From Saccoglossus kowalevskii (Eukaryota > Hemichordata > Enteropneusta > Harrimaniidae), in contig NW_003131853.1 in assembly GCF_000003605.2 (NCBI RefSeq), positions 1,052,140 through 1,115,941 on the forward strand: 63,802 bases of DNA, read 5' to 3'. Below, piece after piece: positions 13,281-46,909 of the stretch (position 1 is the stretch's first letter; each line of letters begins with the position of its first letter). The position numbers and the translations under genes were made by a program. Below the pieces are notes generated by a model. The model saw only the letters and a list, made by a program, of their open reading frames with translations, had not been told where the DNA came from and did no database searches.

Positions 13281-13308
13281 GCAACTTATAATGTTATCAA
13301 TTTTACAG

Positions 13309-15900: not shown

Positions 15901-15904
15901 AGAC

Positions 15905-15985
15905 TCTTCATTCTCGCCAATAACAGATAAAACACACACCAAAGATTAACTTCATGAACTCAAAGACAGTCATGAATTGCACCGT
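15905..15985 (-). pseudogene. Decayed DEG/ENaC TM2 fragment
   Basis: On the minus strand this reads TVFEFMKLI and then, after a one-base shift, LLLARMK. It matches the second half of the last exon of the intact channel gene (TVFEFMEFI...LLLARMRGK). The frame is broken, so it is a remnant. It carries the half of that exon which is missing from the fragment at 18.0 kb. Confidence 0.6.
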
Positions 15986-18009: not shown

Positions 18010-18440
18010 ACAATTGGCGCAATGTAATATCAGGGATACCGATATTCAAGCCCACTGTGCCACCAATATAGCGCATAAATACTCAATATGCATTAAAGGG
18101 CGGCAGTCGTCGCGCCTCGTCCTGTTCGATATGGGACTCATAGCGACGTATACAACGCGTGTAAAATACATTACACCCGAACACGCACTGAGCGACGACC
18201 ACCGCCCTTTAATTTTAGTTTCCATCATCCTGCCTTGTAAATGACCCTGCGCTGCCCAGTATGTTAAACGCTGAAATCATATATATCGATGCACAACGGC
18301 AAGTAGTTACTAAAATAATTAAATATACTATCCCTGTTCACGAAATTATCGTGGAGTCAGCATTAAAGCACGAAGACGTAAGCTTAAATTACTAATAAGA
18401 TTCTCACAATTCAGTCAGCTCATATTTCAATTCATCAAAA
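18010..18440 (-). pseudogene. Decayed DEG/ENaC exons with a MITE insertion
   Basis: The minus strand at 18020-18079 reads IGGTVGLNIGIPDIT with a one-base deletion just before it, matching [15 protein letters not shown] in the last exon of the intact gene. At 18410-18440 it reads FDELKYELTEL and then a stop, matching the penultimate exon ([11 protein letters not shown]). Order and orientation follow the intact gene. A MITE sits between the two. Remnant of a duplicated channel gene. Confidence 0.65.
18093..18212 (+). mobile_element. TTAA-flanked GC-rich MITE, copy 2
   Basis: TTAA|AGGGCGGCAGTCGTCG ... CGACGACCACCGCCCT|TTAA with the core gttcgatatgggactcatag. It lies 14 bp upstream (in the gene's direction) of the decayed channel exon at 18020-18079. 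Confidence 0.88.
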
Positions 18441-21968: not shown

Positions 21969-22112
21969 CTACATCCTAGACTTGCCCCTCATTCGGGCCA
22001 GTAAAAGCACAAACACGTCGCCAATGAACTCCATGAACTCAAATACAGTAATGGCTGAGATGCCGATGTACAACCCCAGTGTTCCACCAATGTCACTGCA
22101 TAAGTTTTCAAT
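21969..22112 (-). CDS. Channel exon 32: selectivity filter, TM2, stop
   Basis: Phase 0 in. Reads [20 protein letters not shown], with the family's GG-x-LGL pore approach and G-I-S (GxS) selectivity filter, then TM2 and a short basic tail ending KSRM. Stop TAG at 21969-21971. Confidence 0.93.
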   Translation of the reverse strand: MENLCSDIGGTLGLYIGISAITVFEFMEFIGDVFVLLLARMRGKSRM

Positions 22113-25100
22113 CTGAAAACAACAATTATAGTTTGTTTACAACCAAGATGTCTAATTATTACTTGAGTATACCCACTACAATTGTCATGCGTATAAGGAC
22201 ATTCTAGTACTACGTCATACGTCAAACGTGCATTTGTAATAATATATGTAAGGCTCCTTCTCACACATAGAGCCACACCACGTCCAACTCTTGATAAAAA
22301 GTCGATAACTCGTAATATTTCTCCGTTGAAGCTAGTGAACATACAATTGTCAACATAATGGTTGGCATTTACGATTAAGTCTTTACTTCTACCGAATTAA
22401 CGTCCACGTGTCAGGATAACTGTTCCATTAGTTGCTAATAGTTCAAATTACTTTGACCTACTAAATGGCATTATGGTCATTAACATAAAATATTCGCTTA
22501 TGTAAAACACATATTGAGAATATAACATACTGGATATGCTTCTTGTTCCTCAATCAGCTCATAATTTAATTCATCAAAGTAGATTTCCAGACTCGCAAGA
22601 TTTCGACTGCACATTAATAAAACAAAATGAAAAAAACAATATTAGTAAGAGTGATAGTTAGACATGTGTGGCTTGTTTTGTATCATAGACTTCTGACTGA
22701 AACATAAGTCATCGATCAGGAAAATATTCAGTTGTTCTTTGTGACGGGTGATAACTGTGAATATTTCGTAACACATCATTGTTTGTCCCCATAAGAGGCA
22801 ATACGTGATAGGTCAGTGCAAGTCTGGGTTAAATAAGTAAATTAGCATAGTGTAGCTTCAGTCGGTAATAAAAACCAGGGTCGGATTTTAAATTACATTT
22901 GAAAGTCTGTCTAGTCAATATCTAGTCTATTACAGTTTCTCGTTGATTATGGAATTACGTGTCTCTACAGACAGCTGCATGTTTTCAATATTTCAATTTC
23001 TCATCAATTATCATTAACAGTATAGCAATGGTGAATATATAGATTTTCATCATTATGAAATGTGGATGAAATTATCGTAAAGTTTAACACTTTAAACGCC
23101 ATTATTATCCCTACAATCATTTTGGTGAAATGATTGGCTAAATTTCTTGCTCATTTTTCTAATATGGGAGAAATTACGTCAAGGTATTTTGTAAAAAGTG
23201 ACAGTCGATTTTAATGTTTAAAAGAGAATTGAGTTGATATTTTATATTACCTCACTTGTTCCATATCATTAAGATTTCTTGTTTTATTGTTCGTAGAATG
23301 CACTGCACGCAACAAATGACTCTAAAACAACAAACAATGTGTAATAACAAACAATTGAGAAATAAAAACTGGTAGATTATGAAAGTTTCATTAACTCATA
23401 TACGATATGATGACATGTTGTCACTACAAATGAGTTATAGATAGAATTATCGATTAACTTACCAAATATACTTCTGACGGCCACGCTGATTGTGACATTT
23501 GAACAGTATACCATTTATCCCTGGTATAAGTACATATTTAGAAATAATTTACTAGTAGTTTTTAAAATCGCAGGTATTCAGAAAACGTTCAAATGTTTAC
23601 ATAAGAACGTTATTAAGTACCGCACGACAAGCTAACTCGACGTAAATATATGAAACAGAATAAATCGATTGGTTAAACAGAATACTTTAGGAAATAACCA
23701 ATTTGAGACATTCTCGTTTTGGTCAAAGACAATATCGCAGTCTGAAGACAATTGAAGACGGTATACACTTACCAACAAGGCTGCGCACAATCACAACTCA
23801 GCTTATTTTTATGATATAAATAATACACTAACTGGCGACATAAATCTGAAATAAGGATATAAATTAGTTATTAATTATGTAAGCACACAGAGGCGTGATC
23901 AAAATGGATCTGACGTCTTTATGAAATGTCTTTGTCAAAACGAAGTTGATGTTCTATGCGATAAGATTAAACGTCTTATCAGTGAGATTACAAATCTCTT
24001 AGAAATGTCTACATTTCAAGCATCAAACAGATTTTAGGAAATAGAATTAAATGTTTTAAAAAAATATAAAACATTTGCTTAAAAGGGAATGAACATGGTA
24101 GCGGTTCACCAAGGGCACCTACATACTGAGTATGGTGTCAATCGGGATAGCAGTGTTTAAGAAGTTGATAATAGCAATTGTTAGCAAAAATATTCACTAA
24201 AAATAGAGAATTGGCGATATCTTACAAAATAAACACATTTGATACAGGTCCAAGGTTCCCACATACCACGCATTAATGCACGGGCTTACTCGGCCATACA
24301 TATCAATTAATAAGTGCGAATACCTTGTGTTTTATTCAATACTGAGCATTCTGGGACGTCTACCGGATACAAATCATCTGTACAACCACATCTATCACCC
24401 ATGTTTTTCAAAAGACACGTTTTCTGACAAGCCTAATAATATAAAAAGAACAGAGACAATATTAAAATGCGGTGATCGTCGTGCCGCGTCGTGTTCGATA
24501 TGGGACTCATAGCGACATTGTAAAATACATTCTTTATTTAAAATTAAATTTCGGGCACGCGCTGTGCGACGACCGCCGCCCTTTAAGTGTTGGCGTCGAA
24601 CCCCTGATAGATCAAAATGAGTAATATCGAGACAATTCAAGCACACTGGTTCTAGTCAGTAATGAGGAAAATAGTGCAATGTTGTAACAATATGAGTACA
24701 AAAGTGTTTGGAAATACAATTCATGTGACTACAAATTCTATCTACTCTAAATGTACGTGTGTTATATATCAATTGCGAGTATTAATTATTGATCCCAGAT
24801 ATTGATACAGTTATGAAAATAAATCAATCAATAAATAAATATATCAATCAATATATTTGTATAGTTGGTGTATTTTGGTATATTTGTTTTAAAACAAATT
24901 CAAAGTTTTTCAGAATACGGCAATATAATCACATATAAAGATATGACAGTGATAAACAACCCACTTATTTACCAATGCCGTATAGCGATTGTCCTTTCCA
25001 TAAAGAGTGTCCTTATTACCATCACTGCAGTTGCCGTGAGGTGATGGCATTCTCTCGATATTATGCTGAAAACAAAAACTATCATATGTTAAATGCCATA

Positions 25101-28100
25101 ACTAATACTTGAATGGAGTGTTAATAGACTATGATAACGGTGATGTATATCACTGCACTACACTACACTACACTGCACTGCACTGCACTGCACTGCACTG
25201 CACTGCACTGCACTACACTTAACTACACTACACTACACTGCACTACACTACACTACACTACACACTTCCCTTCTTACATTAAAAAGAAAGTTTTTCATTC
25301 ATTATTGCGGGAGGTAAGTATGATCATTATAGTGTGACACGAATCACCAATATAAAGACAATGTTTCAGTAACATACCTCACGGACTCCAATCGACGTCA
25401 CAGTGCCTGGTTTTATATTAATACCTTCATCATATGGAAATACTGGTTCATCATTTGGTAAAATAACTACACGTGCACCGGCATCACGACCATAGATACT
25501 GATGTATTCAGACTGCTCCATAAACAGTGTTAATTTCAATCCTGTGTGATAAGTGTGTAAGGCATAATCAATTAAAAGTTGCGTTCCTATTCTTTAGGCA
25601 GAACACATCCGACTGATGATAATGAGAGATAAATCAGTTGGTTTGATAACACCTGACAAACAAGTTCGTGGTTATATCAGTACCAAATAAAATATAAATA
25701 CATGGTAACATTTTATGAACACAAGGTGCGTTCATTATAAAAGTTTAGGGGAATGGCTAGAGCCTTCAAACTTGTCTCACGTGTTCCCCTGCAACTCACA
25801 GCGCAGCGCAGGGAAAAATTGGAAAGTCAAAGTTACAGTATGTGTATATGTGTGTTCAGTATTGCATAAGTAAAATCGAAAAATAGTCAGCGCCTTCAAA
25901 CTTGGCACACATATTCATCATGTTACATTTCAATGTCAAGGTTAAAAGTCATAATTCATAAGTCATATATTCTGTTCCCGATAATACTAAAAAGGGATTA
26001 TGAACTTAGCATACATGTTCATCATATGATCGCAATTTTAAAGGAAAAGTCGCAATATATATGTAAGATTGTAAATTATGTATCGCCTTCAAACTTCACG
26101 CACATCTTTCCCGCGCAATTCGCAATTTAATGGTCACGAGTGATCGTTACAAGGTCACACAACAGGTCTCCTGCCATAACTACGCCATGACGACTGAAAT
26201 GTAGCTCTGAATGTTCATATTAATATTGAAGATATATTGCGCAGTGTTCATCTTCTCAAAAATATATACTCAAAGCCTGTTTTAGGGGGAAAGTACAAAT
26301 GTTAAAATTAAACAATTCCATGAATTTTGCTAAACGACGTTGTATTTATGTATGTGCATTGTACTTTATTGCTTACCAAAGTTCGCCCCAGTTCGTGTCG
26401 CATCATGTGTTTTTCTCCCAGGTTCTGCACGGTTAAACTCAAAACAGTTCCCATATTTGTCATCCTGAAAAGTTGTGAAATCTTCACTGCAAAATTAAAT
26501 GAATCGGGCAATCAGCAATATATATAGCAACTTAGTTTGTTTTAGAGGCACAACGGATGACATGTTAAATCAATTATAATGGACTCACCTCATATTGCAT
26601 GGTTGCTGATCAAAACTACATTGTAAAATAAAATCATTCAACTGGTGTCCGTAATTGTATATTTCCTCAGGCGTTAGTTTTAAAACAGAACGGATGTCAC
26701 TGAAATCAGGTGATGAACTAAATGTCATGAAACCTAACCAGTCAGGTGGATCTTCACCTTTGACCCTATCAAAACCGTTATCACGGTAGTATTCGTCACG
26801 AAATGTCTGATAAATATGGTGTTCATCTGTTACATCAAGGAAGTTACTGTACCATGCGCCATCAAACACACTGTGTGTTGTATTGTATGCTGAAACGAGA
26901 GCCAATTTGACATTATTTGACACACTATATAAATAATAAAAACAATAAAACAGACGTTTGTGCGTATGTTCATATGCGGTACTTAAATAGAAGTTCATAA
27001 TTTAATCGAAGAAATATCAGGTGATCATTATCATAGTCGGATATATGTTTAGAAGATACATTGTTTTTTTTGGAACACACTATTAAATCGGCATGATGAC
27101 GTCTCGTCACTTCTGTCGTCACACTCCACTAGTAGATTACACCTGGAATACCGATGAATACATTGTCCATTGTCGCAGCGATATTCGCCGGATTTACATT
27201 CACTGCTGTAATCTGAAATGATAATTTAAAAGTATGAAAAATTTTTTTATCCGAGATTTATGAGTATTAATACGTTTATAATGTGCATAGTTTATCATTG
27301 AGTTAGGGAGTACCACGAACTAGGTTTTGCTAGACTGTCCACAAATATAGAGAAACCTTACTAATACATCATAATATAAACATAATATGTAGACAGTTCA
27401 TAAAGTAACAGAATATTATGTACACAACGCCACGCCGACTTAGTTTAAGTCACGACCGGCACCCCGTACTTACAGAAACGGTTTTGAGCACGTTTGAAGA
27501 TGACGCCGCCTTGAAAGTACGTCATCAGTGTCAGGCTCTCTCTGGAGTTTCATTCATTGCAAGTATTTTTTTTTTAAAAACATGGCTGCTGATAACAGCG
27601 CCGGCTCAGTTTAGTCTTTATACACTTATGAACACAGAACCAATTAAAACCACTGATGACGATTGTTTACCAGGTTAGTCAAGCCGGCTCTGTGGCATAC
27701 CTGAGAACAGGGTATAATACTCGGACATAAAATAGTAAAAATCAATCAGATGATCTTAGAGGCAAATGGCCGCTGAGACTTCGTTGAGAGCGGGACAGTC
27801 ACGTGGTCTGTTTTGTGTTCCCGTTATCGTGGCCACCATTCCAAAAATGGTTACATAAGTCATGAACACAGCGGATGCGAGGACGAGCGACAATGGAACA
27901 AAAGCAAGTCTCGCTCTCAACGAGATCTAGGCGGCCATTTCTTGACGGTCATTTCTAGGCGGCCATTTCCAAGGCCTAGTATACAATCAGTGCAAAGCAA
28001 TAGATAAATAATTTATCATAAATTATCTTACAATGCCAGATTTCGAATTTGATAATCTTCTTATCTCATTATGATTAAAACAATGAATTTGCCTCTCTCA

Positions 28101-31100
28101 TTCACCATTCAAGAATACACACTGTGATCAGTGAAAAAACACACAAAAAACCTAGTCTTACTTGTAGAAATTGTTGTTTGATTACTTGGCATAGAAGTAG
28201 GCGTAACGTAGAAATGCGTTGTCTGCGGCGATGTCAGTCTAAATGGCGTCGGGCTAGTGGGACAGTTTTCTTCATCCGTCATGTCTACGCAATCAGAAAA
28301 GGCGTTGCATTGTAACGTCAGTGGAATGCACTGAGTATTGTTGTCACACAGAAAACACGGCTCGTCTGATGAGATAAGAGGTAAGTAAAATATAAGAAGC
28401 AATTATTGAATATTCTGTATTCTTAATATAGTACAGGGATGCTCAAATCTTTTCAGGTGTGAGCATGTTATAATGAATTCACGAATACTAGTTATTCAAG
28501 TTCATTGAATCATTGATTGTCGATGAGTATATCATTACCAAAGAATATGTCTGTATGACTTAAATTGCATATACTACAAGTACTGAATTGCGCATGCTAA
28601 ATCGATCAAATATTCACCCGGCCAATCGTATAACCACAACCACCGTGTACACACCATAATCGATTCGCCTGTATGTCAAGTTGAATCCATTTCCACCAAT
28701 CTGGTCATCACTGCGGAATCTTATATACACGTTATGTGAATCAGATAGCCATATATCCGGCAATGAGTAATTGCCACATAGAGTTTGACTGGAAATCCCA
28801 TCTGTAATCTGCAAAAAGTAAATCAACGTCGTTTGGCTACATACAATTTAAAAACAATTTCTAGTTGTGTTTGTAAACTTTTGTGTTATTAATAGTGATA
28901 TTACTGGCTCGTCCATCCATCAGTCGTAGTACTGACATATAATACATATATTTGCGCAAGGCAAAACCGATTCACAATTGATTATACGACTCACCGCTAA
29001 GTAGTCAGCCACGCAATTCTCTGAGTTCTCAAGGTCAAATGTCTGAAAAACGAGTTCAACTCTACCATAACCAATATCGATAGAGGTGACGCAGTCATCA
29101 ACCGACGCTGGATAATTGTCAGGGTAGTTTGGTGACGTCACAAAACCAGTGTCATGGGTCAGGGTTACGTCACAAAAATCTAAGAAAATAAAGTTGCGTG
29201 ATCAATATGTACATTATAATAATTTTAAAACATACATCTCACAGGAATTATATAGAAGAGCTCTTAGACTAGCCAATATATATATTAAAGGAATATTGAC
29301 ATGTTCGTTTGTTTACATATTCTATTTGATAACTTCATAAGAGTATTTGCTTCATTAAAGTGTTGATTCCCATTTTGCTTTGCGTGATTTTGGCAAAGTG
29401 TTGTTGACGTGTTGATTATATACTAGACGATTTCTAGTGCATTGCATTAAATAGCAAATAATATTAATAATCAATGACGGGACTGTAGAGTGTTACAAAT
29501 TTACATAATTTTTATTTGGATATTTTGTGAATGAATTTTCTTTCTTTTAAATCTTCACGCGTAATCATAAACACGCCTCGTCAGTACAATCAAGCTAAAA
29601 TAAATATTAACCAGCTAAACATCATATTTTGAAAGCCACTTTTTTTCTGATAATCTAGACACTTACTTAACGTACAACCTGCCTCATCTGAATGATCTTC
29701 ACAGTCTTTATTCATATTGCATACAACAGATGACGGCAAACATCTGATTCCACCATCACATGAATAACCATAGCAAGCTTTTGAATTAATTAACAAGACA
29801 GTTACGTCATTAGAGCATGTTTGCTTTTGTTTCGAAATGCATATTAATACAAGATAAACTTAATTAAAATTATGTTTGGCTGAACTAAATTAATTCGTAT
29901 TCTGAAAGTTGTGAAGAAATTAAATTCTTGTTTTAACCACATCTCAACACTGTGTGAATCTGCTGATTGTTACGCTATGAATTTTCTGTATATTTATTGT
30001 GAAATTGGCGCAGAACATGGTTATTCTCCGGACAGACAAATATCAAAAGAAGTAGTATATGCCAGAACCATGTATGAATGGAAAATAGTCATACATTGTA
30101 TACTGTGAAAAAGCATTTTGGGTGTTTTGTATGGTATTTATTTTCACTGATTTTTGACGAGTTGAATGTGAGATATAGGGAAAAAAGTATATTCGTTGGA
30201 TTTTATTTTCACGGAATCATCCCTTCAGCGAAAATAAAGTAAAATAAATAAAGTATTCTACAGTATATACATAAAATGACGGACAGCTGTACACAATGTA
30301 GGGTTACAAAGCCGTATTTAAAATTTCTCTCGTTTTTATTTGGTGTATGATTATTTGTCCTCATACATGCGGTGATAGCAATAATATATATTTTTATACT
30401 CGTCCAATTACTAATTATTAACAACGTATAATATTTAGTTGACCTTACTATCAATAAGCTTTTAATTGACCTCCTCAATTTCCTCAAATTCCACTCGCAA
30501 ATACTCGATTTTTTTTAATCATAGTTTGACTGGCCCAGGACATAAAATCGCTTTGGTTTTATTACTTAAAATGCAGAAAACTTAAGTGATAAGATTTAGG
30601 AGTACATTTTCTCCGTATAAGAAATTATTTTTTCGTTGCAATTCATAATCGTACAATAAAAACAATCAATTTAGTTCGATTTCTAAATCCGGAAAATATA
30701 AAGACAACATCATCTCCAAGGTACTTACGCATGGTATCATTAAGAGGTGGCAATGTTTCATACACTGCAGCGAAACCAGTCCTACTTTGTTCTGAATCAG
30801 TGGTTATAACAATAGATACATCTTGGCTGTCCGATGTCCAATTGGCAAGTGGTAATACTCCGCATAATAAAGGCGTGGTTCTCCGAGAGATATTGTCTAT
30901 AATCTGAGTTCATAAATAAGCGATTACAGGTCAATGTACTTTGTGTTGTGTATGTATGACCAGCCATCGTAAGTAATTTCTCCAGTGATATATTTTTCTT
31001 TTCAAACAAGACTAGCATAATGTATCAATGCATGTTTGTGGGCACTAAAGCAAAAACATTTCCTCTTCATTTCGAAAACGTTTTCTCTCTTCCTCTGAAA

Positions 31101-37100: not shown

Positions 37101-38407
37101 ATTAATAATCTAACGTCTTTACAGTGGTGTATTGTACTGAGGTTTACTGTACCGAAGTTTGCCAAACCGCAATCAAACCTTATGAAATACTGTGTCATAA
37201 CTTACGGCAATCCTGTTCATCGAATCCATCAGCACAGTCAGGCACATCGTTGCATTTTAGTGACTCTGACAAACATCTTCCCTCCAATGGACACATGAAC
37301 AGTCCAACTCCGCACGGTCCACTTGGCCCCACTGTAATTAAATGTACGTCACATGGCTTATTAATCTTGAAAAATACGCTCGCAACGCATCAATATAAAT
37401 ACACCAATTGTTGTAAAACGTGTTAGACGTAGTCAGAGCTTTTAGGACTGGGAATATTTAATAGTTGTTGTTTTTTGAAACGCAGTCACGTTTTTGGCCA
37501 TCAAATGAAAATTGCTTTTCCGGGTGTTTTTACTGACCATTGAATGTAAATCGAATCAGGTTTAGGGGGTAAATTAGATTTGCTTGCAGTCTGTTGCGAT
37601 TTCGATGAAATATCTTGAAAAATAAATATAAATTGCGTAAACCAGGGGTGAACGCGAAAGTCGTGTGACCGCGAAATACCAACAGACTTGCCATCAGTGT
37701 AAGCGCCCTCACATTACCGGCCAGATTCGGGCTTGTAAATTTTGCCATATACGTCATACGTCGTGGGTGGAGCAAGCCGAGCCCCGGATCATAAAAATAA
37801 ACCGGACATTGCACGTGCCTGTNNNNNNNNNNNNNNNNNNNNNNNNNNNNNNNNNNNNNNNNNNNNNNNNNNNNNNNNNNNNNNNNNNNNNNNNNNNNNN
37901 NNNNNNNNNNNNNNNNNNNNNNNNNNNNNNNNNNNNNNNNNNNNNNNNNNNNNNNNNNNNNNNNNNNNNNNNNNNNNNNNNNNNNNNNNNNNNNNNNNNN
38001 NNNNNNNNNNNNNNNNNNNNNNNNNNNNNNNNNNNNNNNNNNNNNNNNNNNNNNNNNNNNNNNNNNNNNNNNNNNNNNNNNNNNNNNNNNNNNNNNNNNN
38101 NNNNNNNNNNNNNNNNNNNNNNNNNNNNNNNNNNNNNNNNNNNNNNNNNNNNNNNNNNNNNNNNNNNNNNNNNNNNNNNNNNNNNNNNNNNNNNNNNNNN
38201 NNNNNNNNNNNNNNNNNNNNNNNNNNNNNNNNNNNNNNNNNNNNNNNNNNNNNNNNNNNNNNNNNNNNNNNNNNNNNNNNNNNNNNNNNNNNNNNNNNNN
38301 NNNNNNNNNNNNNNNNNNNTTGTTGCGGTCACATGACTTTCGCGTTCACCCCTCGTTTATTCAATTTATATTCATTTTATTTTGTCCAGGCTCAAAGTCA
38401 AATCATC

Positions 38408-38442
<35 letters not shown>

Positions 38443-41400
38443 TTTAAGCTCTATATTGCATAAAAATGTTTCAACGTTGTCACGAACTGTATTCGGGTTT
38501 GAAATAGTGCAAGATTTATTAAAGCGCGGTGGTCATCGCGCAGCGCGTGTTCAAGTTTCATGTAAAAAACAATATATTTTACACGCGTTGTATACGTCGC
38601 TATGAGTCCCACGTCGAACACGACGCAGCGCGACGACCATCGCCCTTTAAATAAACCAATATAATATAATATAATAATAAAATAATCTTTCCAAAATTGA
38701 ACTTCAATATTACGTCATCAGAGCATTTCAGCCGATCTAATTTCTGAAGTCTGGTTATTGTATGGCGAGGCGGTTCAGATTCGAAATAAAAAATAAATAT
38801 GCAAATGAGTTCATTCCGTTGCAGAAATCGTATTTCAACACAACGAACAAGGACATGAATATAACGAAGGTTTACAATCCAATTAGATAAGTATGCAAAT
38901 TGAGCAATTAATATGCATTGTTGCATATTACGAACGTTATTTTAGGTGAGACAAATAATCACGACTTACCACGGTAGTCAATACATCCGATGCATTCACA
39001 GTGAGCAAAACTATTACCGCACCAATCAGAAGGGGAGCAGCAATAGAATTCGGAATTAGGGTCGCACTCAGCGGGACTGCCATCGGGCAAAAGATAGTTT
39101 GGGCCACAGCGAGCATCGTCTCTCCACCTCGTATTGCTACCTACAATAATAATAACACGTTAAGTGCAGAGATTAGGCAAGATTACGATAGGAAGATTTG
39201 ATACTGACAAACATGGTGCAGAAAATCTTAAATTAAGATCGGGAATTGTGTTTGATCTATTATGGAGGGAACTTAAAGGGCGGTAGTCGTCGCGCCAAAC
39301 TTGCGCGAAATATATGAGTATCATATAAAGAAAGATGGCGACTTTGGCTGTTGCGCAGATCAATGAGTACAAATTTAGACGTTACTAAACTTTAATTAGG
39401 TATTTTAGATGATTGAAGGGTATCGAAGGAGTCACCGGCGGTAATTAGCACATTGGATTGTGGGAAAATCAATGTTTATCAACAAAAATGTAGCAAATGC
39501 GCAGCGCGACGACCGCCGCCCTATAAGATATTGTGTACATACATACCAGTTCCACACATATTTGGGTCCTCGTCTGACTGATCAAAACAGTCAAATGTAC
39601 CATCGCATCTGAAATACTCAGGGATACATTGGCCTGTCATACATCGAAACTGATCAATTGTACAAAATCCTGCAGGTAAATGAAACAAAATCGTAAACAT
39701 AATGGATTATAAATCGTACAGCACCGTACTAAGCAACTGGGATCGGAGCTACCTCGTGTTATATCAATTTATAAGTTAAGAGTTGGCAAAATTCTATCCC
39801 ATGAGAGCATCTCGCGAACATAAATTTAATTCACAGTTTCTAAATCCCATACAGATATGTCAACAAATAATTTGATAAATTTACAACGTAATTTTTGTAT
39901 GTGTGTTATGTATTTTAATGGTTACATATAATATAATTTTCTTTTGCATACTAATATATGTCGTCATCAGATTTTATTTAAACGGTAGTTTAAAGCGAGT
40001 TATTGACCCAATGCAACGCTAACTAAGTCTTACACTTACACTTACAAGGCGACACTATTATGCTATCAATACGTGACGGCAGTTTCTGTGATTGGTTCAA
40101 TGTTCGAATATGATGAGTCATTGCTATGGATTGGCTAATACGACTTTGTAGGTTTAATTTTGTGTCACAATATTTTAGAATGAACAACGTTATATCCTTT
40201 CGCAAATAATTGACTAAAATTAGAGCTTGCGGTGGTTGCTTCAGTCACCGCTCTACTAACAACGACTATTAGACTGAAATATCGTGTTGAGTATGTTTAG
40301 GTGATTAGAACGAGAAAAAACAAGATTGAGAATCCGATCGCGAGGGACCTAGATAACAAAAGACAATTCAACTGTCACATATATCAACTGTCACAGCGAG
40401 TTTAAAACAGCCCTCAAAAATGGTAATTATATTTTAAATGTACTTACCTGGTACCAGTGCACCAAGGTCGCAGTTGAGTTCGTCGGTTCTGTCATTACAG
40501 TCATAACTACCATCACACTTGAAACTATTTGCTATACAAGTCACATTTCGATCACACAGAAAACCATTAATACAATGCTTGACTGAAATAACACATTCTT
40601 AATGTAAGTAATGTACATTGTCATGGAAAAATCTGACGACAAAATAACATAAACTCAAAAAACCGGCATGACCCTTTTTCACCCATTGTAAGATCAATAT
40701 ATATATTCAGGAACTTGAAAATCAAATATTTTCTAATTAATAAATATATAAAACGTACGTGTGTCATATTTGAATGTCTTGTTGTGTGACATCAAAACTC
40801 ACCATCTGGACAATTTTCTTCATCCGATCCATCACCACAGTCCGAATGACCATCGCAAACTTTGTGTTTCTCAAGACAGTTACCAGCATCGGTACATTTA
40901 AATTCTTGCATTCTGCATTCTATATTTAACCACAGAAGTGAAATTGAAATTGAATCTTTCGTATGATGCAAAACTGAATGACTGATTGAATAACTAATTG
41001 ATTGAATAACTAATTGTTGAATAACTAATTGATTGAATAACTAATTGACTGATTGATTGATTGATTGATTAATTGATTGATAATTTAAAAAATAAATATC
41101 ATATGTTCTGTCAATTTAATTTTACATTTTCAACGTGCACGTCTGTTTTTATTGTAAATATAATTGTTCAGAATGTTCACGACTTTAAATGTAAATCCTG
41201 CTTAGTACATTTATACGTGTTCCTGTGTCATTTTTGCTTTTATATCGTTATGCACATGCGGCGCCGACCTTCTCCGTGATAAATATACATGATTGCATGG
41301 TATATACTATGCTGAATGACAGTAAATATGAACTGCGTACGTAACCCCAACATGTACAATTCGAATGAACTAATGTGACATTAGTATTGTGTAGGATCAT

Positions 41401-44400
41401 TGTGCATGCAATTGTGTCTACAGCAATATTTGGGTAAAATTGGGACATCTTTATATGGTTATATTTAAAGCGGGAGGGTCATCACCTGCGCACGCGCGGG
41501 AATTGAGTCCCAAGCGACGATAACAGCACACACTAAAAACGCAAATGGCTCGTGTGGGTAGACGCTTGTTTGTGAACAATGACACGCTATGGCTATCTGA
41601 CGCATGCGCAGGTGACGACTCTTCAGACAGCTTTGTGCGCTCTAGTATTCCATATTAACGCATAATTTAGATAGATAACACTATATGCCATTAATTATCT
41701 CGAACAAATTATACATCGGACAACCATGCTTTATAACCTGTTACGTAATTACATATTCAAAACTGTAAATATTTAAACTGACACCAAATTCTTCCACATG
41801 ACTGCAGTACATAAGAGTTATTACTTGCCGCAATTCTGTTCATCTTCTGCTTCGTAACAGTCTGCAACTTTGTCACATTGTTTGCGTATTGGAATGCACG
41901 GCCCTCTGGGACTTCCATTTTGACATCGGAATTGATTTTTGCCGCATGTACCTGAAAATGATAACATCGCCAACAGTAAAATCAGTCATGGTGGAAAGGG
42001 AGGTCGACATTACACATTTTCAGACATTGTGGATACAGAGAAAATAATTTGGATTGAATGATTCATTTTATGGGACAGACAACGATATTTATAACGATGT
42101 TTATTTCTTCCATGAATTTCATCAATGTTATTTCACGCTCCATTTGTGCAGGTCAGATTGAATTATTTATTTCATCATGCACGTACTGTTTCATTGCGTT
42201 TTATATTACTTGTCTATGTGTGTCTGTGTTATATGCATCTTTATTTTTAAGACATTATTTTTCAGCTTACTGTCTTCATTAATAAAATCTTAATTTAACT
42301 TGTGGGTACGTAACATTGTACTCACCATATACACATCCATTTTCGTCACTACCATCATTTGAGCACTGTCGAATACCGTCGCATAATAAGTAGGGCTTGA
42401 TACATGCGATTCCATCGCTACACGCAAAGTCACCAGCTAAACAGGGACCTACACATGAAAATTACAAGGTAAGTTTCACAAATCAAAAGTAGCCGGCGAA
42501 ATCCAAGTAATGCTCGCTTTGTTGGATTTCCTGCTACGTTTCCGATCTGCGGTACATCGTGGCCATTTCACAATGTAATCCCATCCTTACAATTAATTAA
42601 TTAAATAAAAATTTAGTATATTAGTCTTATTTTTGACTCGTTGTTAACTTAACTCTGTACTATGGTATTGGTGATATATGAATTGGGTGCCATAGGATGG
42701 TACTTGATGGCCAACCAACCTAATCAAATATGTATTTTGCATTGTACGAGTGCAAAATAAGATATTAGGATATTAGTACCAGCTGTGTTATACGCATGCG
42801 CATTGGCCGATCCTGTCAAATGTCGTCATCTGTTTTGGGGCGTGTCTGGTCTGGTGAAATTGCTTCAGCCATTGGGTAACGGAATTAACTGGTGTCTGTG
42901 TGAATACCGCTGTAAAGTGGCGGTAAAATGAATTTGCGCGGATTTACCAACATAGTAAACCAAACTTAGAACTCATGATATTGATGCAGACGACTATGGT
43001 CGAACAACCATGAGAAATAAATGGCGGGACTTTGGTGTTGCACATTTAGCACAGAAATAAAAGACACGCCCACAGTTGGACAACCAATCATTTTATTATT
43101 GGTCACGATGAACCACGGATCATCTGCACGTCCTTTGTAAACACCACATACACGATGTGCCGTCATCCAATGGCGGGATGAGCGGCTAAGCCCCTTTGTG
43201 CACAATCAGCGTCAACTTCATGATAGAAACACGACGCACTTGCTAAGCCGTCTGGTGGCGCCCTACTATTGCACCAATAACCGAATATATATCCTGTTCC
43301 CGAATTGGACATTTGTTTATTTGGAGTAATTTCCAATTCTACGTCCTTAGTAATTAATGATTTCACGTATTTATTTGGCCGTTGTTTGACAGACGTAAAA
43401 TGCCATAATGTTATTTCGCGGAAATTTAAACACACTGATACTGATAATAAATTAAAAATTTGCCAAAGAAATACTAAATTTGCTATCTCATGGAAATGAT
43501 TAAAATCAAAATATTTGGCAATATATTAAGTTTTGCGTCGCATGCACACGATTGAAATATCATATAAAATGGGTCTAATATACTAATGATGTACTAGTAT
43601 TTATTTAATTGTAAGAACTAGTTTACATCCTGGAATGTCCACGATGTACCACGGATCGTTTTCGAACATAGTCCCGAACACATTTGTAAGACACATGTGC
43701 CTATTACTCAATAGAGAGTGATATTGGTTGCAATCGTAGTTTCAATTTCGGTAGAGTGGCGTAGCAATACATCTAAGTGCAATCTATGTCAACAGAAAGA
43801 AAGTGTATTTACTTACTGTAGTATGGGAGTATGTTACCCTCGTCCACGAGCAGAATGTTGGCATGTGGTGATTGGCTGATGGCTGACTTGCGCAGTTTGT
43901 TTGTATTGCAGACAGTGATGCTTGGGAACGTCAATGATGTACTGGATACAACTTTAACCTTAGTAAGTCACAGCACATACATAATAGTGAATGTTCTGGT
44001 TTTAAGACAATTTGTTCATAGGAGATGAATAAACTAAATGTTATAACATATGCTATTGGTGAGAAATTTAAATATTCCACATTGTTCATTTCTGTGTGCT
44101 AAAATATTACGCACAATTTAACGTTATAGGTGTCATTTTACGTGCTTTTGTTTTTTTAGTTTTCAAAAAGGAATGTCTAAAATTAAAACAATAGTAAATG
44201 GTGTAGTCATATTGTTTAATGTTATGTCCATTGAAAAATACATTACTAAATTGGATGCAGTGTAATTAATTGCATAAAACGGTCTTTTTTGTATTATAAG
44301 AATAAATTATTCATGCAACTTAATTATTTTACGCTTATCTTTTAATTTGAATCTATCCCTGACGGAATACCGTGTCACGGGTCAAAAATAGGACTAATTC

Positions 44401-46903
44401 TGGAATTTATCATTTTTTTGATATGATAAATGCAAATTTGGCAATATAACTTTGTGAATGACGGTTGTGTCGGTCACACATGTTTTGTTTTCTGTGTTAA
44501 ATAGGGAGTATGCACTGTTTTTATATCAATTAAAAGTATTAAAATGACGGAAGTTCTGATGATGTGCCATATTGTACCACAATATACAAGGTGTGTATTA
44601 TATGCTATTGCCATGTGTTACACTTGGCACGAATCAATTGTTCCAGGTACATACAGACATAAACATATATATATTAAAATACCATTTGTTGACATTTTCT
44701 GAAATGATAATTGTTGCACATATAAGTTGTACAGACACTGCAATACACACTTTCCGCTCTCAACCTCGTAAATTTCTTTCATTTGGGGTGGGTCAGATTT
44801 TGAGTAGAAAATTCAGAAATATGTTAAGAATAATAATTTTAATAATAACCAATTACACAAGAATATTACAGAAACAAAAAAAATTGCTATATTATCTATA
44901 CTTTTGTATTTTATTTGTTATGAATTACGATTGCAAGAACCATGAATGAAATTGAAACTATGCAGTGTGTTCAACAACTTATATATGAACAATAACTTAA
45001 ATAAGTTTTACTTTATTTTCAGCATGAAAACACAAGAATTGTCCAATGTCGAAAACGGAAAGTTTTTATCGTATTATGGTATTAATATTATGACAAAATA
45101 TTGGAGCATTGGCTTGCATGCACCACCACCACGCACTTAGACACATAAACCAACCAATCATAATGGCTGTATATGTCCACGTTTATGAATGAATGAATGT
45201 AATGAAATGATTAAATGTTTGGACAGTCGCACCATACAAAGTTAATATAGTGTTATCAATGTTTTATTGATACATGTTAAATTTATAGAATACATCTATC
45301 CAATTAACATGCAAATATGTTAACCACAATTGAATACATCATCTTCATCATCGCAGCGATGTATATGTATAATTAATTAGCAATTACACTGTGCCACATA
45401 TTCAAGATGTGTCTAGGACAGCGGAGGCAACAATTGAAGGAATGGGGTAGATATAGGAAACATTTTAAAAGAGTTAAGAATAGTCTATTAAACAAGAAGC
45501 CTGACTGGTGAGAGTGTTATATTTAAAAACGTATTAAAAATACATTAGATTTCAACTAAGATGATTTATGGGTGTTGTGTATGCTTCACTGTCATATCAA
45601 GGTCATTATCCCTCATGGGTGGGCATTATAATTACTCGGAACTAAATGTGCCTGCCATGCTCAATGTTTTGTATTCTGACCCCATTAATCACAATTTTGA
45701 TGAGTTTTTTTTCGTGACGTCACGCTACTAAGATCAGACGATGTTGTGACAAGCACAGGAGATATAAGGATGCAATATATTGATTTAGTGTTGCTGAGTT
45801 CAGAAGTTGGTTTAGAACTTGGTTATATCTTGAACTCTTAGTGTTGACATTTTCGAAAACAATTCTAGATCTATTTGATTTGGGCAGTACGTGTATATCC
45901 TGAACAATTGCATGTTACAACGACTAGTCATCACAGTGCATAATAGATACATTGCATATAACACGTTTACATCCATCGCCGTATGTGTATGGATTACTAA
46001 CTGGTACTCCCGACTGTGGATGTTAACACACGAAACCTTTTGTCGCGTAAACTTGCCACAGTATAAAGTATATTTTTGATAAAATAATATCCATCATATG
46101 AAGGTACATTTAAAAAAAATGCTGGCTTAATTTTATGTTTTTCCATGCGGGAAATATCATTCTAGCTCCACTGATGTGTTTTCGCAATACCAACTATATG
46201 CTCCTTGCGATGGTGATGTTAATTATTCATACAAGTTTTAATTAAATGATTTGTGAATTAAGAAGCCACGTATGTTTTATTACCTTGTTATTGACTTGAT
46301 ATTCTAGATACTGTATAATCAAGAGCGACGACTGTACAAGAAATGCCGTCAGGGCACATACACATATCAGACTCCACATGATACGACCACATGTCGACTT
46401 TGACTGTATAACACGAGGTATGCCATGTGCAGTGGTATTGTTCATATACTCTTTAGAAATAGCATAACACCCAACTCTGCCCTCCTTCGTGTCTTTTTCT
46501 TCCACGATGACGCTGGGTGGATTTGCGTACGTAACGCTCAGCCGTTGTGAAGAATCCTTTCTGTCGGTAAACCCGCGTTCATCCGTGATGCTGGATAAAA
46601 TGAAACAAAGAAAGTCATAAATCCATCACCGCAGCATATCGTATTTATCGCCATTCTTTATTACGGCGCGTTTAAGTTCTAAGTTCATTTTTCTAAGTTC
46701 GTTTTAAGTTCATTTTTGACAGATATAATAGTAGTTTCTCTTTTTTAATTATCGTGTACAATTATGCACGCCAGACGAAAATGTTCGATATGTTATGATA
46801 CTTACTCTGTCATGTCGCCGGATGATTTTGTACTGCTGTTCAAGTCAGCGTGCCCATATAGCCAGCTTGCTTTGAAGGGTGCACTTCTTGATGACTCAGA
46901 CAT
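21969..46903 (-). CDS. DEG/ENaC channel with CUB/LDLa ectodomain insertion, whole gene (32 coding exons, 1,562 aa)
   Basis: A predicted plasma-membrane, trimer-forming sodium (cation) channel of the DEG/ENaC/ASIC superfamily with a giant extracellular insertion. Exon coordinates, 5' to 3' on the minus strand, are in the separate entries from 46806-46903 down to 21969-22112. All 31 junctions agree in phase and the summed exons make 1,563 codons including the stop. Layout by residue: cytosolic N-terminus with His88-Gly89, TM1 about 103-125, FPSITVC strand about 145-151, LDLa1-5 183-389, hevein-like module 390-446, LDLa6-7 447-528, CUB1-3 529-901, LDLa8 902-938, CUB4 939-1051, LDLa9-10 1052-1163, channel ectodomain 1164-1515, GxS filter 1532-1534 and TM2 to 1562. 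An acceptor-like ctcgacag directly before the ATG suggests an upstream 5' UTR exon. Ordinary family members have about 500-700 residues. A hidden symmetric exon in the N gap is possible. Confidence 0.85.
22531..22606 (-). CDS. Channel exon 31: IYFDELNYE strand
   Basis: Phase 2 in, phase 0 out. Reads [19 protein letters not shown], the conserved (I/V)Y(Y/F)xEL strand leading into TM2. Acceptor ATGTGCAG, donor TCCA|GTATGT. Confidence 0.9.
23251..23321 (-). CDS. Channel exon 30
   Basis: Phase 0 in, phase 2 out, 71 nt. Reads SHLLRAVHS and RNLNDMEQV, a variable helix of the family at this position. Acceptor GTTTTAG, donor GTGAG|GTAATA. Confidence 0.78.
23463..23520 (-). CDS. Channel exon 29: WPSEVYL strand
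   Basis: Phase 2 in, phase 0 out, 58 nt. Reads [19 protein letters not shown], the family's Y-x-V-x-x-S...WPS strand. Confidence 0.9.
23773..23845 (-). CDS. Channel exon 28: thumb (CDCAQPC)
   Basis: Phase 1 in, phase 2 out. Reads [10 protein letters not shown] and [10 protein letters not shown], completing the thumb disulphides. Acceptor TATTTCAG, donor GTTG|GTAAGT. Confidence 0.88.
24324..24432 (-). CDS. Channel exon 27: thumb cysteines (CGC motif)
   Basis: Phase 0 in, phase 1 out. Reads [20 protein letters not shown] and VDVPECSVL, the family's C-x3-C...CGC disulphide-rich thumb. Acceptor TATTATTAG, donor ACAAG|GTATTC. Confidence 0.9.
24462..24586 (+). mobile_element. TTAA-flanked GC-rich MITE, copy 3
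   Basis: The right end ACGACCGCCGCCCT|TTAA is canonical; the left end is decayed (TTAAAATGCGGTGATCGTCG). Core gttcgatatgggactcatag present. It begins 30 bp upstream of the acceptor of channel exon 27. Confidence 0.82.
24973..25065 (-). CDS. Channel exon 26: ectodomain, PHGNC
   Basis: Phase 0-0. Reads [12 protein letters not shown] and ends DNRYTAL, matching the family's P(Y/H)GNC segment just ahead of the thumb cysteines. Acceptor GTTTTCAG, donor CATTG|GTAAAT. Confidence 0.88.
25149..25263. repeat. (CACTR)n pentanucleotide microsatellite
   Basis: About 23 units of cactg/cacta in the intron between channel exons 25 and 26. It makes a spurious plus-strand frame. Confidence 0.95.
25378..25541 (-). 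CDS. Channel exon 25: palm/beta-ball strands
   Basis: Phase 1 in, phase 0 out. Reads [18 protein letters not shown], then [12 protein letters not shown] and [15 protein letters not shown], all strongly conserved DEG/ENaC segments. Confidence 0.92.
25740..26200. repeat. Degenerate tandem repeat, intronic
   Basis: Diverged copies of 'gccttcaaacttggcacac' / 'atgttcatcat' recur near 25762, 25893 and 26088 at about 110-190 bp spacing. Non-coding filler between exons 24 and 25. Confidence 0.6.
26377..26486 (-). CDS. Channel exon 24: YGNCFEFN motif
   Basis: Phase 2 in, phase 1 out. Reads [19 protein letters not shown], the DEG/ENaC (D)F...YGNC(Y/F)xFN signature. Confidence 0.9.
26589..26889 (-). 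CDS. Channel exon 23: start of distal ectodomain
   Basis: Acceptor CGTTTCAG|CA, phase 1 in; donor ATGAG|GTGAGT, phase 2 out. Reads a family-like alpha-helical stretch and ends [17 protein letters not shown], the conserved C-S/F-x5-C pair of the DEG/ENaC finger. Confidence 0.85.
27081..27212 (-). CDS. Channel exon 22: LDLa 10
   Basis: Phase 1-1, six cysteines, [15 protein letters not shown] and [12 protein letters not shown]. The last inserted module before the channel ectodomain resumes. Donor TTAATA|GTGTGT is weak; acceptor TCATTTCAG is strong. Confidence 0.83.
27765..27980. mobile_element. Inverted-repeat (MITE-like) element in a channel intron
   Basis: Left text aaatggccgctgagacttcg / ttgagagcggga faces right text tcgctctcaacgagatctag / gcggccattt as reverse complements. 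The right motif ggcggccattt occurs twice. Non-coding. Confidence 0.6.
28162..28365 (-). CDS. Channel exon 21: LDLa 9 plus Thr/Pro/Ser linker
   Basis: Phase 1-1, six cysteines ([10 protein letters not shown]), followed by about 30 residues rich in Thr, Pro and Ser that look like an O-glycosylated spacer. Donor TACAA|GTAAGA. Confidence 0.87.
28655..28808 (-). CDS. Channel exon 20: CUB 4, second half
   Basis: Phase 0 in, phase 1 out. Reads [18 protein letters not shown] and [14 protein letters not shown]. The donor TTATG|GTGTGT is weak but is the one that keeps phase 1. Confidence 0.82.
28995..29179 (-). CDS. Channel exon 19: CUB 4, first half
   Basis: Phase 1 in, phase 0 out. Reads [20 protein letters not shown] and ends CVADYLA. 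Acceptor TTTCTTAG, donor TAGCG|GTGAGT. Confidence 0.87.
29667..29777 (-). CDS. Channel exon 18: LDLa 8
   Basis: Phase 1-1, 37 residues, six cysteines, [14 protein letters not shown]. The acceptor TTCAAAAG has a weak pyrimidine tract. Donor TTAA|GTAAGT. Confidence 0.85.
30100..30265. mobile_element. MITE (family with TACTTTATTTT termini), copy 2
   Basis: Shares 'ttttgggtgttttgtatgg', 'gatttttgacgagtt' and 'aataaagtattctacag' with the copy at 8.5 kb. Intronic, non-coding. Confidence 0.65.
30729..30903 (-). CDS. Channel exon 17: CUB 3, second half
   Basis: Phase 0 in, phase 1 out. Reads [16 protein letters not shown] and a less conserved final strand ([10 protein letters not shown]). Donor CATGC|GTAAGT. 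Confidence 0.85.
31857..32035 (-). CDS. Channel exon 16: CUB 3, first half
   Basis: Phase 1 in, phase 0 out. Reads [20 protein letters not shown] and ends CRYDNVQ. Acceptor AATTGTAG, donor TTCAG|GTAAAG. Confidence 0.88.
32222..32246. repeat. (CTAGA)n microsatellite next to a splice donor
   Basis: Five pentamer units directly downstream of the donor of exon 15 (minus strand). Confidence 0.9.
32249..32447 (-). CDS. Channel exon 15: CUB 2, second half
   Basis: Phase 0 in, phase 1 out. Reads [16 protein letters not shown] and [16 protein letters not shown], then a linker. Acceptor TTCTTTAG, donor CAACAG|GTTAGT. Confidence 0.88.
33160..34190. repeat. 36-bp minisatellite, about 28 copies, intronic
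   Basis: Unit approximately 'agtgagatcaatatgtctatttcactttcagttaga'. Because 36 is divisible by three, long open frames arise on the plus strand (repeats of [12 protein letters not shown]), but these are not genes. On the gene's strand most units carry GAAAGTGAAA. It occupies the intron between the halves of CUB 2. Confidence 0.95.
34395..34588 (-). CDS. Channel exon 14: CUB 2, first half
   Basis: Phase 1 in, phase 0 out. Reads [20 protein letters not shown] and ends CNNDYVQ. Acceptor TTTACACAG, donor TTCAG|GTAAGA. Confidence 0.88.
34855..35041 (-). CDS. Channel exon 13: CUB 1, second half
   Basis: Phase 0 in, phase 1 out. Reads [16 protein letters not shown] and [16 protein letters not shown], the standard CUB second half, then a Pro/Thr linker (DVQPTPPQ). 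Donor GCAAG|GTTAGG. Confidence 0.88.
35640..36425. repeat. Degenerate tandem repeat, about 120-150 bp period, intronic
   Basis: Four diverged copies of a unit containing aggtctgcgcattttcccag recur near 35936, 36056, 36200 and 36350, with 'taattaggtaattaatatgca'-like AT-rich text between. It fills the channel intron between the halves of CUB 1. Non-coding. Confidence 0.65.
36598..36782 (-). CDS. Channel exon 12: CUB 1, first half (GC donor)
   Basis: Phase 1 in, phase 0 out. Reads [19 protein letters not shown] and ends CAYDYIQ, the usual first half of a CUB domain with its cysteine pair. The donor is CAG|GCAAGA, a GC-AG intron. Confidence 0.85.
36960..37079 (-). CDS. Channel exon 11: LDLa 7
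   Basis: Phase 1-1, six cysteines, [17 protein letters not shown]. Acceptor TTTTCAG, donor GAAG|GTAACA. Confidence 0.9.
37206..37331 (-). CDS. Channel exon 10: LDLa 6
   Basis: Phase 1-1, six cysteines, [14 protein letters not shown]. Phe replaces the usual Ser in the SDE box (GFDE). Acceptor AATTACAG, donor TGCC|GTAAGT. Confidence 0.87.
37612..38392. repeat. Inverted repeat whose centre is a 497-base run of N
   Basis: The left arm at about 37612-37676 (core ggggtgaacgcgaaagtc) and the right arm at about 38324-38390 (core gactttcgcgttcacccc) are reverse complements. The N run 37823-38319 lies between them. A foldback or TIR element within the intron between channel exons 9 and 10 probably defeated assembly. 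Open frames that cross the N run are artefacts. Confidence 0.75.
38409..38440. repeat. (AAT)n microsatellite
   Basis: About ten AAT units, intronic. Confidence 0.9.
38519..38650 (-). mobile_element. TTAA-flanked GC-rich MITE, copy 4
   Basis: TTAA|AGCGCGGTGGTCATCGCGC ... GCGCGACGACCATCGCCCT|TTAA; the interior holds the family core in reverse (ctatgagtcccacgtcgaac). In the channel intron between exons 9 and 10. Confidence 0.85.
38970..39140 (-). CDS. Channel exon 9: hevein-like cysteine-rich module
   Basis: A phase 1-1 exon of 57 residues with ten cysteines: [37 protein letters not shown]. The CCS-x3-WCG core looks like the hevein (chitin-binding type 1) pattern, but the ending C-x-C-x2-C-x-DYR differs. 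I recall similar modules in multidomain invertebrate proteins, without a named function. Chitin binding is not claimed. Confidence 0.8.
39273..39526. mobile_element. TTAA-flanked GC-rich MITE, copy 5 (different interior)
   Basis: Same ends as the other copies (TTAA|AGGGCGGTAGTCGTCGCGC ... GCGCGACGACCGCCGCCCT) but about 254 bp with an unrelated interior, so a sub-family that shares only termini. In the intron between exons 8 and 9 of the channel gene. Confidence 0.8.
39547..39669 (-). CDS. Channel exon 8: LDLa 5
   Basis: Phase 1-1, six cysteines with [15 protein letters not shown]. Acceptor CCTGCAG, donor ACTG|GTATGT. Confidence 0.9.
40448..40582 (-). CDS. Channel exon 7: LDLa 4
   Basis: Phase 1-1, six cysteines with [17 protein letters not shown] and a short linker GALVPG. 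Donor CCAG|GTAAGT. Confidence 0.9.
40803..40919 (-). CDS. Channel exon 6: LDLa 3
   Basis: Phase 1-1, six cysteines with the classic [11 protein letters not shown] calcium box. Donor GATG|GTGAGT. Confidence 0.9.
40978..41078. repeat. (GATTGAATAACTAATT)n-type repeat
   Basis: Short interleaved units of gattgaataactaatt and gattgatt in the intron between channel exons 5 and 6. Confidence 0.85.
41466..41636. mobile_element. TTAA-target MITE, second family, copy 1
   Basis: Left end ttTAAAGCGGGAGGGTCATCACC followed by tgcgcacgcg; the right end tgcgcaggtgacgactcttc...agcttt is its imperfect reverse complement. About 170 bp, in the intron between channel exons 5 and 6. Confidence 0.7.
41829..41951 (-). 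CDS. Channel exon 5: LDLa 2 (GC donor)
   Basis: Phase 1-1, six cysteines, ending AEDEQNC. The donor that keeps phase is TTGCG|GCAAGT, so a GC-AG intron. The Ca box is less canonical than in its neighbours (YEAEDE in place of xDxSDE). Confidence 0.83.
42326..42448 (-). CDS. Channel exon 4: LDLa 1
   Basis: Phase 1-1 exon with six cysteines and the calcium-box residues DGSDENGC. LDLa modules are about 40-residue calcium-binding ligand-recognition folds. Confidence 0.88.
42460..43816. other. Channel intron 3, no exon seen
   Basis: Contains locally duplicated text (cacgatgwaccacggatc near 43105 and 43640) and stretches such as tgattggctgatgg that look like old transposon debris. No further exon that keeps phase was needed. 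Confidence 0.45.
43817..43958 (-). CDS. Channel exon 3: first palm strand (FPSITVC)
   Basis: Acceptor TTACTAAG|GTTAAAG, phase 0; reads [18 protein letters not shown], the family's conserved strand after TM1. Strong donor TACA|GTAAGT, phase 1. This is the last channel exon before the inserted modules. Confidence 0.87.
43959..46283. other. Channel intron 2, no exon seen
   Basis: A 2.3-kb AT-rich intron; plus-strand frames here (for example 44572-44949) have no family motif. Confidence 0.5.
46284..46590 (-). CDS. Channel exon 2: HG gating motif and TM1
   Basis: Acceptor TTATCCAG|CATC; reads a hydrophilic stretch, then [11 protein letters not shown], with the family's His-Gly gating pair, and then the first membrane segment ([20 protein letters not shown]). 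Donor ACAAG|GTAATA, phase 0. Strong DEG/ENaC N-terminal hallmark. Confidence 0.88.
46806..46903 (-). CDS. Channel exon 1: cytosolic N-terminus
   Basis: ATG at 46901-46903, reading [10 protein letters not shown]; donor ACAGA|GTAAGT, phase 2. Rich in Ser and Thr. A pyrimidine tract and CAG immediately upstream of the ATG suggest that the transcript starts in a further 5' exon that I cannot place. Confidence 0.75.
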
Positions 46904-46909
46904 AGTCTG

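Follow-up and report, generated by a model that had tools for sequence, protein, structure and literature searches.

Does one gene encode a sodium channel of the DEG/ENaC family with a large set of LDLa, CUB and hevein-like modules inside its extracellular loop, or do the exons of an ordinary channel enclose a second gene, and what could such modules do for a channel? A preliminary description had proposed the first for the minus strand of the window (the whole stretch of 63,802 nucleotides analysed here). We rebuilt the gene independently from the minus-strand frames and the splice sites read around conserved stretches, using DEG/ENaC motifs to pick frames and test membership.

Gene model and modules

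The 45-exon output of an unconstrained exon search was rejected, its spurious short exons being dropped after the frames were compared with DEG/ENaC motifs. The assembled model has 32 exons running from a putative start codon at ATG 46903 to the end of the last codon at 21972, followed by TAG at 21971-21969; phases are consistent, internal stops number zero, and 1,562 amino acids plus the stop make 1,563 codons. The exons are listed in the order of translation, with the basis for each in parentheses.

46806..46903, minus: exon 1, start codon (M at 46903) and cytoplasmic N-terminus, GTAAGT donor, 5' end putative (gene model)
46284..46590, minus: exon 2, HG motif (AHGIP) and TM1 (gene model; alignment to PDB chains)
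43817..43958, minus: exon 3, post-TM1 strand FPSITVCN and start of the finger, phase-1 end (gene model; phase analysis)
42326..42448, minus: exon 4, LDLa 1, counterpart in 7/7 paralogues read (gene model; Pfam; paralogues)
41829..41951, minus: exon 5, LDLa 2, GC donor, counterpart in 7/7 paralogues read (gene model; paralogues)
40803..40919, minus: exon 6, LDLa 3 (gene model; Pfam; module profiles)
40448..40582, minus: exon 7, LDLa 4 (gene model; Pfam; module profiles)
39547..39669, minus: exon 8, LDLa 5 (gene model; Pfam; module profiles)
38970..39140, minus: exon 9, hevein-like (chitin-binding type) module (PGRP3 chains, 6e-16; Pfam Chitin_bind_1 below cut-off)
37206..37331, minus: exon 10, LDLa 6 (gene model; Pfam; module profiles)
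36960..37079, minus: exon 11, LDLa 7 (gene model; Pfam; module profiles)
36598..36782, minus: exon 12, CUB 1 first half, GC donor (gene model; Pfam; module profiles)
34855..35041, minus: exon 13, CUB 1 second half (gene model; Pfam; module profiles)
34395..34588, minus: exon 14, CUB 2 first half (gene model; Pfam; module profiles)
32249..32447, minus: exon 15, CUB 2 second half (gene model; Pfam; module profiles)
31857..32035, minus: exon 16, CUB 3 first half (gene model; Pfam; module profiles)
30729..30903, minus: exon 17, CUB 3 second half (gene model; Pfam; module profiles)
29667..29777, minus: exon 18, LDLa 8, poor AAAG acceptor (gene model; module profiles)
28995..29179, minus: exon 19, CUB 4 first half (gene model; Pfam; module profiles)
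28655..28808, minus: exon 20, CUB 4 second half (gene model; Pfam; module profiles)
28162..28365, minus: exon 21, LDLa 9 and Ser/Thr/Pro-rich linker (gene model; Pfam; module profiles)
27081..27212, minus: exon 22, LDLa 10, weak donor (gene model; module profiles)
26589..26889, minus: exon 23 (E1), second part of the finger, mostly family-specific (gene model; genome search; locus alignment)
26377..26486, minus: exon 24, YGNCFEFN strand (gene model; PDB chain alignment)
25378..25541, minus: exon 25 (E3), GLKLTLF to GVRE (gene model; PDB chain alignment; genome search)
24973..25065, minus: exon 26, conserved stretch of 10 residues (frame reading; gene model; PDB chain alignment)
24324..24432, minus: exon 27, thumb cysteines (CGC) (frame reading; gene model; PDB chain alignment)
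23773..23845, minus: exon 28, CDCAQPC (frame reading; gene model; PDB chain alignment)
23463..23520, minus: exon 29, AWPS (frame reading; gene model; PDB chain alignment)
23251..23321, minus: exon 30 (frame reading; gene model)
22531..22606, minus: exon 31, stretch of 12 residues (frame reading; gene model; PDB chain alignment)
21969..22112, minus: exon 32, TM2 with GIS tract, stop codon (frame reading; gene model; PDB chain alignment)

Exon number, codon number and agreement of phases thus came out exactly as first described, and the rest of that description of the protein was borne out as well. Its DEG/ENaC hallmarks at both ends are present in the translation (36 residues), and a Pfam search with the complete translation (E up to 1) returned just ASC (2.4e-78, two stretches), CUB (3e-74, four stretches) and Ldl_recept_a (2.3e-62, ten stretches), all with scores far beyond chance, matching the claimed ten LDLa and four CUB modules on the same strand; the insert, put at about 980 residues, measures 981 (residues 183-1163). 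Besides the splice sites marked in the list, the acceptor of exon 3 is poor, and a 497-base run of N (37823-38319) lies inside intron 9 and could conceal an exon.

The insert is rich in cysteine (84 residues), strongly acidic (net charge -96) and holds 13 of the protein's 21 N-glycosylation sequons. Its modules are ordered as LDLa 1-5, the exon 9 cysteine module, LDLa 6-7, CUB 1-3, LDLa 8, CUB 4 and LDLa 9-10, and six cysteines with an acidic end are present in every one of the ten LDLa modules. Searched against the PDB, the CUB block matched cubilin best (1.2e-43), then neuropilin-2 (3.5e-21), PCPE1 and MASP, with Neto2 (2.8e-13) and enteropeptidase (9.4e-10) among the lower matches. The exon 9 module alone scored 0.0047 against Pfam Chitin_bind_1, below the family cut-off, and matched two PDB chains named peptidoglycan recognition protein 3 (PGRP3; 6e-16 and 7e-16), which we take to be amphioxus chains, the matched part presumably being their chitin-binding domain. 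In chitin-binding modules aromatic residues contact the sugar; the exon 9 motif CCSPSDWCG has one Trp at the position of WGW in the PGRP3 chain. Modules of the exon 9 type occur at 20 other places in the genome among the matches listed (e.g. contigs C120, C350 and C560), with 46-65% identity, and on C120 they form an array spaced at ~1 kb.

When the modules are left out, by joining exon 3 to exon 23, the frame is kept and a 581-residue chain results, both halves of which align to PDB chains of ASIC2 (2.5e-53), ASIC1 (4.1e-51), ENaC alpha (5.7e-51) and FaNaC1 (1.3e-46), scores that do not decide among the ASIC, ENaC and FaNaC subfamilies. TM1 with the HG motif, FPxxTVCN, the thumb CxC and CxCxxPC, and TM2 with GxS (26 residues) are intact. 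These are the features shared across DEG/ENaC channels (ASIC, ENaC, FaNaC), along with the cysteine-rich thumb; the window protein differs from them in its length of 1,562 residues and its finger insert, the matched PDB chains having 421-679 residues, some of them as truncated constructs. H73 and D78 of ASIC1a are protonatable residues fairly conserved in ASICs (PMC9949801). Read by eye, the 13 residues of the window protein that align with the ASIC stretch yfhyhhvtkldev have no counterpart of either; proton gating of the ASIC type is therefore not predicted, and we set it aside. Furin-type activation likewise found little support: the whole protein has one RXXR motif, inside LDLa 10, and no RX(K/R)R.

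LDLa-bearing channel loci and the single-gene reading

A genome search with the second channel half gave 105 matches, 41 of which (window included) were taken as matches to exon 23, or E1. We read seven loci, chosen among the ten strongest E1 matches after the window and hence not random, all having TM1; C2445, C309 and C1573, also among those ten, were left out of the reading. In all seven, TM1, the exon-3 part, LDLa, E1 and E3 stand in sequence on one strand, with LDLa modules at E<0.01 numbering 9 (C2340b), 4 (C3786a), 4 (C3786b), 12 (C3229a, plus one weak module at 0.02), 6 (C4507a), 6 (C4507b) and 4 (C6). TM2 was found in six of the seven, the stretch read at C6 ending short of it. The first two LDLa modules are 48-59% identical to those of the window, and E1 is 49-54% identical to the window's. 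Profiles built from the window detected no CUB or cysteine module at E<0.01 in the seven paralogues. The two loci on C3786, with four LDLa modules each, are a tandem pair.

The seven loci are spread over four other contigs and a far-off region of the window's own contig, a recurrence of the same order that, together with 1,562 open codons and 32 exons in phase, makes it extremely improbable that the window gene is an assembly artefact or a pseudogene, for all that the N run in intron 9 and several weak splice sites might suggest one. In three paralogues (C3229a, C4507a and C4507b) no intron separates TM1 from the exon-3 part, the two forming a single open frame, in support of our joining exon 2 to exon 3.

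To count LDLa-bearing loci genome-wide we used a single query (LDLa 1-2, E up to 0.01, best candidates scored) and assigned to each E1 those matches on its strand that preceded it by no more than 40 kb and followed the nearest TM1 or preceding E1. This used 98 of the 117 LDLa matches (18 on C4670 and one on C2959, contigs with no E1 match, were left out), 40 of the 93 ASC matches (TM1-like) and the 41 E1-like matches. An upstream LDLa match was present for 25 of the 41 E1 matches, window included, for 22 of the 30 that are 38% or more identical, and for 16 of the 23 with TM1 found; we accordingly regard LDLa arrays as a trait of the family. The other 16 had none among the candidates scored: they comprise weak E1 matches, E1 matches close to the end of a contig, and two good matches that have TM1 (C309 and C3821). 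TM1 is present in seven of these 16, with E1 identities of 51% (C309), 41% (C3821) and 28-33% (C4225, C696, C1055, C2444 and C3898), and such loci may be family members truly devoid of LDLa.

CUB modules were found in two genes, that of the window and one on C1687 (~41355-49606, minus), where two CUB modules are followed on one strand by E1 in two pieces and by E3, the contig ending upstream before any TM1; this is likely a second CUB-bearing DEG/ENaC gene. The genome-wide CUB search, in which the best 150 of 402 candidates were scored, did not list the window's own CUB modules and therefore gives no count of CUB-bearing channels. C1091 has CUB modules (66209-68541) and an LDLa match near the contig end (76953); channel exons are absent from the 10 kb read there, and it was not counted as a family member. 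Among the eight loci read, the window gene has the most elaborate set of predicted modules, and it is not a one-off.

Exon borders in the eight loci nearly always share one phase. The best exon-3-type donor is in phase 1 in 8/8 loci (window included), as are the best LDLa acceptor in 52 of 55 modules and the best E1 acceptor in all seven found among the eight loci. A best LDLa donor was found for 52 of those 55 modules and is in phase 1 in 49. In the window gene every LDLa exon and every pair of CUB exons is flanked by phase 1 on both sides. We then compared three related paralogues pairwise (the two on C3786 and the one on C6, all outside the window), setting LDLa exons against four channel stretches (TM1, exon-3 part, E1 and E3). 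By pair, dS was 0.505, 0.509 and 0.671 for LDLa exons vs. 0.475, 0.672 and 0.654 for channel stretches, single exons being scattered from 0.13 to 2.5, and dN/dS was 0.14, 0.13 and 0.13 vs. 0.23, 0.23 and 0.25. The comparable dS and low LDLa dN/dS indicate that, in these loci, duplication took LDLa and channel exons together and that the LDLa exons are maintained as protein.

The competitor to a single gene would be two: an ordinary channel gene enclosing, between its halves, a separate gene for LDLa and CUB modules. In its favor, the channel stays in frame without exons 4-22, and read-through of exon 22 meets a stop ~30 bases on, with a poly(A)-like hexamer at ~27006 in intron 22, so that a shorter product ending within that intron may exist. 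A nested gene would need its own beginning, and candidate first exons are few: upstream of LDLa 1 (phase-1 donor, score >2) there is one in intron 3, not hydrophobic, and none in intron 2, while of five upstream of exon 1 the one hydrophobic candidate, at ~57.0 kb, is 10 kb away. Moreover, in all seven paralogues read TM1 precedes and E1 follows the LDLa exons on one strand, and LDLa and channel exons diverged together. On paralogues, first-exon search and joint divergence we rejected the separate nested gene, to which we give very little credence; a chance neighborhood of LDLa exons was likewise rejected, on paralogue order, genome-wide counts, phases and selection. The channel halves and the modules most likely form one gene, a reading that rests on the order in 7/7 paralogues, the phase-1 borders and the comparable dS with LDLa constraint. 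Paralogues, phases and joint constraint thus lend good support to the single channel gene of the preliminary description, with LDLa, CUB and hevein-like modules in its extracellular loop, and make unlikely the separate module gene that it had named as its own refutation.

One gene need not mean one product. The same exon borders would permit in-frame skipping of single modules or of the whole arm (exon 3 to exon 23 giving the plain 581-residue channel), and a plain channel and modular forms might both be made by skipping of phase-1 cassettes, the modular form being a tuneable share. The phase-1 ends of LDLa exons and CUB exon pairs favor this, as does the variation in LDLa number, from 4 to 12 (E<0.01) among the paralogues read; in the three related loci, however, LDLa exons are more constrained than channel exons, which argues for their routine use there. 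We hold such a mixture to be a reasonable possibility, with chances short of even.

Position of the insert and its possible action

The insert follows the conserved post-TM1 strand and precedes the second finger half. Its starting point, query residue 182, corresponds to position ~162 of the ENaC-alpha chain, and the alignment blocks end at 172 and restart at 260; from this point and gap the arm would exit the finger at or next to the position of the ENaC GRIP domain, which lies between finger helices alpha1 and alpha2 (PMC6197857). In a model presented as speculative by its own authors, partial removal of GRIP rearranges finger and thumb (PMC6197857).

We somewhat favor the reading in which the predicted 1,562-residue protein is one DEG/ENaC subunit with a finger-borne binding arm that, in cis, couples contact with a partner to gating or to clustering or anchoring; a role in gating or localization had also been put forward, as a hypothesis, in the preliminary description. 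If subunits assemble as trimers like other DEG/ENaC proteins, each channel would carry up to three arms in a ring on its top. Their LDLa and CUB modules would bind calcium and capture a partner, whether protein, matrix or glycan; an arm that is held, pulled or released would shift the finger against the thumb and so alter opening, and it might additionally cluster or anchor the channel. The net effect would be a channel with a CUB-LDLa helper of the Neto or LEV-10 type fused in cis.

Such helpers are known: LEV-10 clusters acetylcholine receptors, SOL-1 and SOL-2 regulate GLR-1, and Neto proteins act on glutamate receptors (PMC9083331). Neto1/2, SOL-1/SOL-2 and LEV-10 share with the window protein CUB modules, mostly with LDLa, that gate or cluster receptors (PMC9083331), but they are separate type 1 membrane proteins serving other receptor families, whereas the window's modules lie inside a two-TM channel chain. 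For the family as a whole the analogy is weakened, since the LDLa module of LEV-10 is dispensable for clustering (PMC9083331), and the seven paralogues have LDLa without CUB at E<0.01. Similar CUB or CUB-LDLa blocks occur in cubilin, neuropilin, PCPE1, MASP, enteropeptidase and the stem of matriptase, which have no channel and other roles.

Other uses of the arm have to be weighed against partner binding. It might be a docking and cleavage platform for proteases, in the way that ENaC is activated by proteolysis: two CUB and four LDLa modules occur in matriptase, one of the activators of ENaC (PMC8199346), the arm's finger position is near that of GRIP, and MASP and enteropeptidase chains are among the matches of the CUB/LDLa block. 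Against protease control stands the single RXXR, inside LDLa 10, and we consider it unlikely. The resemblance to GRIP, an extra finger domain that controls gating (PMC6197857), is positional only, GRIP being a small beta domain with cleavage sites rather than a set of imported modules. A different proposal, a non-conducting adhesion or scaffold protein that kept the channel fold merely as a base, draws on some DEG/ENaC proteins, EGAS included, that gave no current above control when tested (PMC10424705). The HG motif, TM1, TM2 and GxS tract are nevertheless intact in the window gene, and the channel exons of the three related loci are under purifying selection, making a scaffold quite unlikely.

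Returning to the binding arm, the preliminary description knew of no channel with this architecture. Among the open-access papers listed, we too recognized no description of a DEG/ENaC channel with LDLa or CUB modules, and the main text of two DEG/ENaC papers (PMC10148893 and PMC9822975) contains no 'LDL'. That claim needs qualification for added modules in general, for which EGAS-1 to -4 of C. elegans, DEG/ENaC proteins combining EGF with ASC, are a precedent (PMC10424705); their modules are EGF, a family absent from the window protein in Pfam at E up to 1. What sets the window gene apart is that CUB/LDLa channel partners, known as separate proteins, would here belong to the channel chain itself and sit at or next to the site of proteolytic control in ENaC. 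The sister genes, with 4 to 12 LDLa modules, would offer a natural series for relating the finger arm to gating, placement and choice of partner. If the arm binds ligands, a deuterostome would have a family of sodium channels that are tethered or gated directly by ligand, a description of which did not turn up in our searches of the open-access literature. A broader and more tentative proposal, which we think rather improbable, is that exon shuffling at a GRIP-like finger site turned the DEG/ENaC channels of a deuterostome lineage into a large receptor family with built-in recognition of patterns or matrix and with member-specific sets of LDLa, with or without CUB and chitin-binding-type modules, in which binding of protein, lipoprotein, matrix or glycan would directly open, close or place a sodium channel without a helper subunit.

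Surrounding sequence and the mitochondrial contig

The frames flanking the gap in intron 9 (37823-38319) are alike in opposite orientation, as if an inverted repeat surrounded it, and intron 14 contains a minisatellite (33163-34143) of 27 copies of a 36-base unit that is open in several frames. Downstream of the gene on the minus strand are two weak TM2-like stretches (18011-18079, 6e-05; 15903-15947, 9e-03), which may be left over from a duplication of the last exon or may be chance matches. Neighbors in the window are a CBM21 protein (4013-4849, minus), stretches of glycosyl hydrolase family 1 (10481-13586, plus) and exons of a gene of the glucosamine isomerase/6-phosphogluconolactonase family (59854-61751, minus).

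Contig C4830 (17,037 bases) is mitochondrial, and by eye it has cox2, atp6, cox3, nd3, nd4L, nd4, nd5, cytb and nd1 on one strand and nd6 and cox1 on the other. Its codon use is in keeping with a hemichordate host, probably of the enteropneusts: ATA stands mostly at sites expected to be isoleucine in COX1 (nine inner ones), AAA at expected lysine sites of ND1 and AGA at two serine-like sites, and TGA is read as tryptophan.
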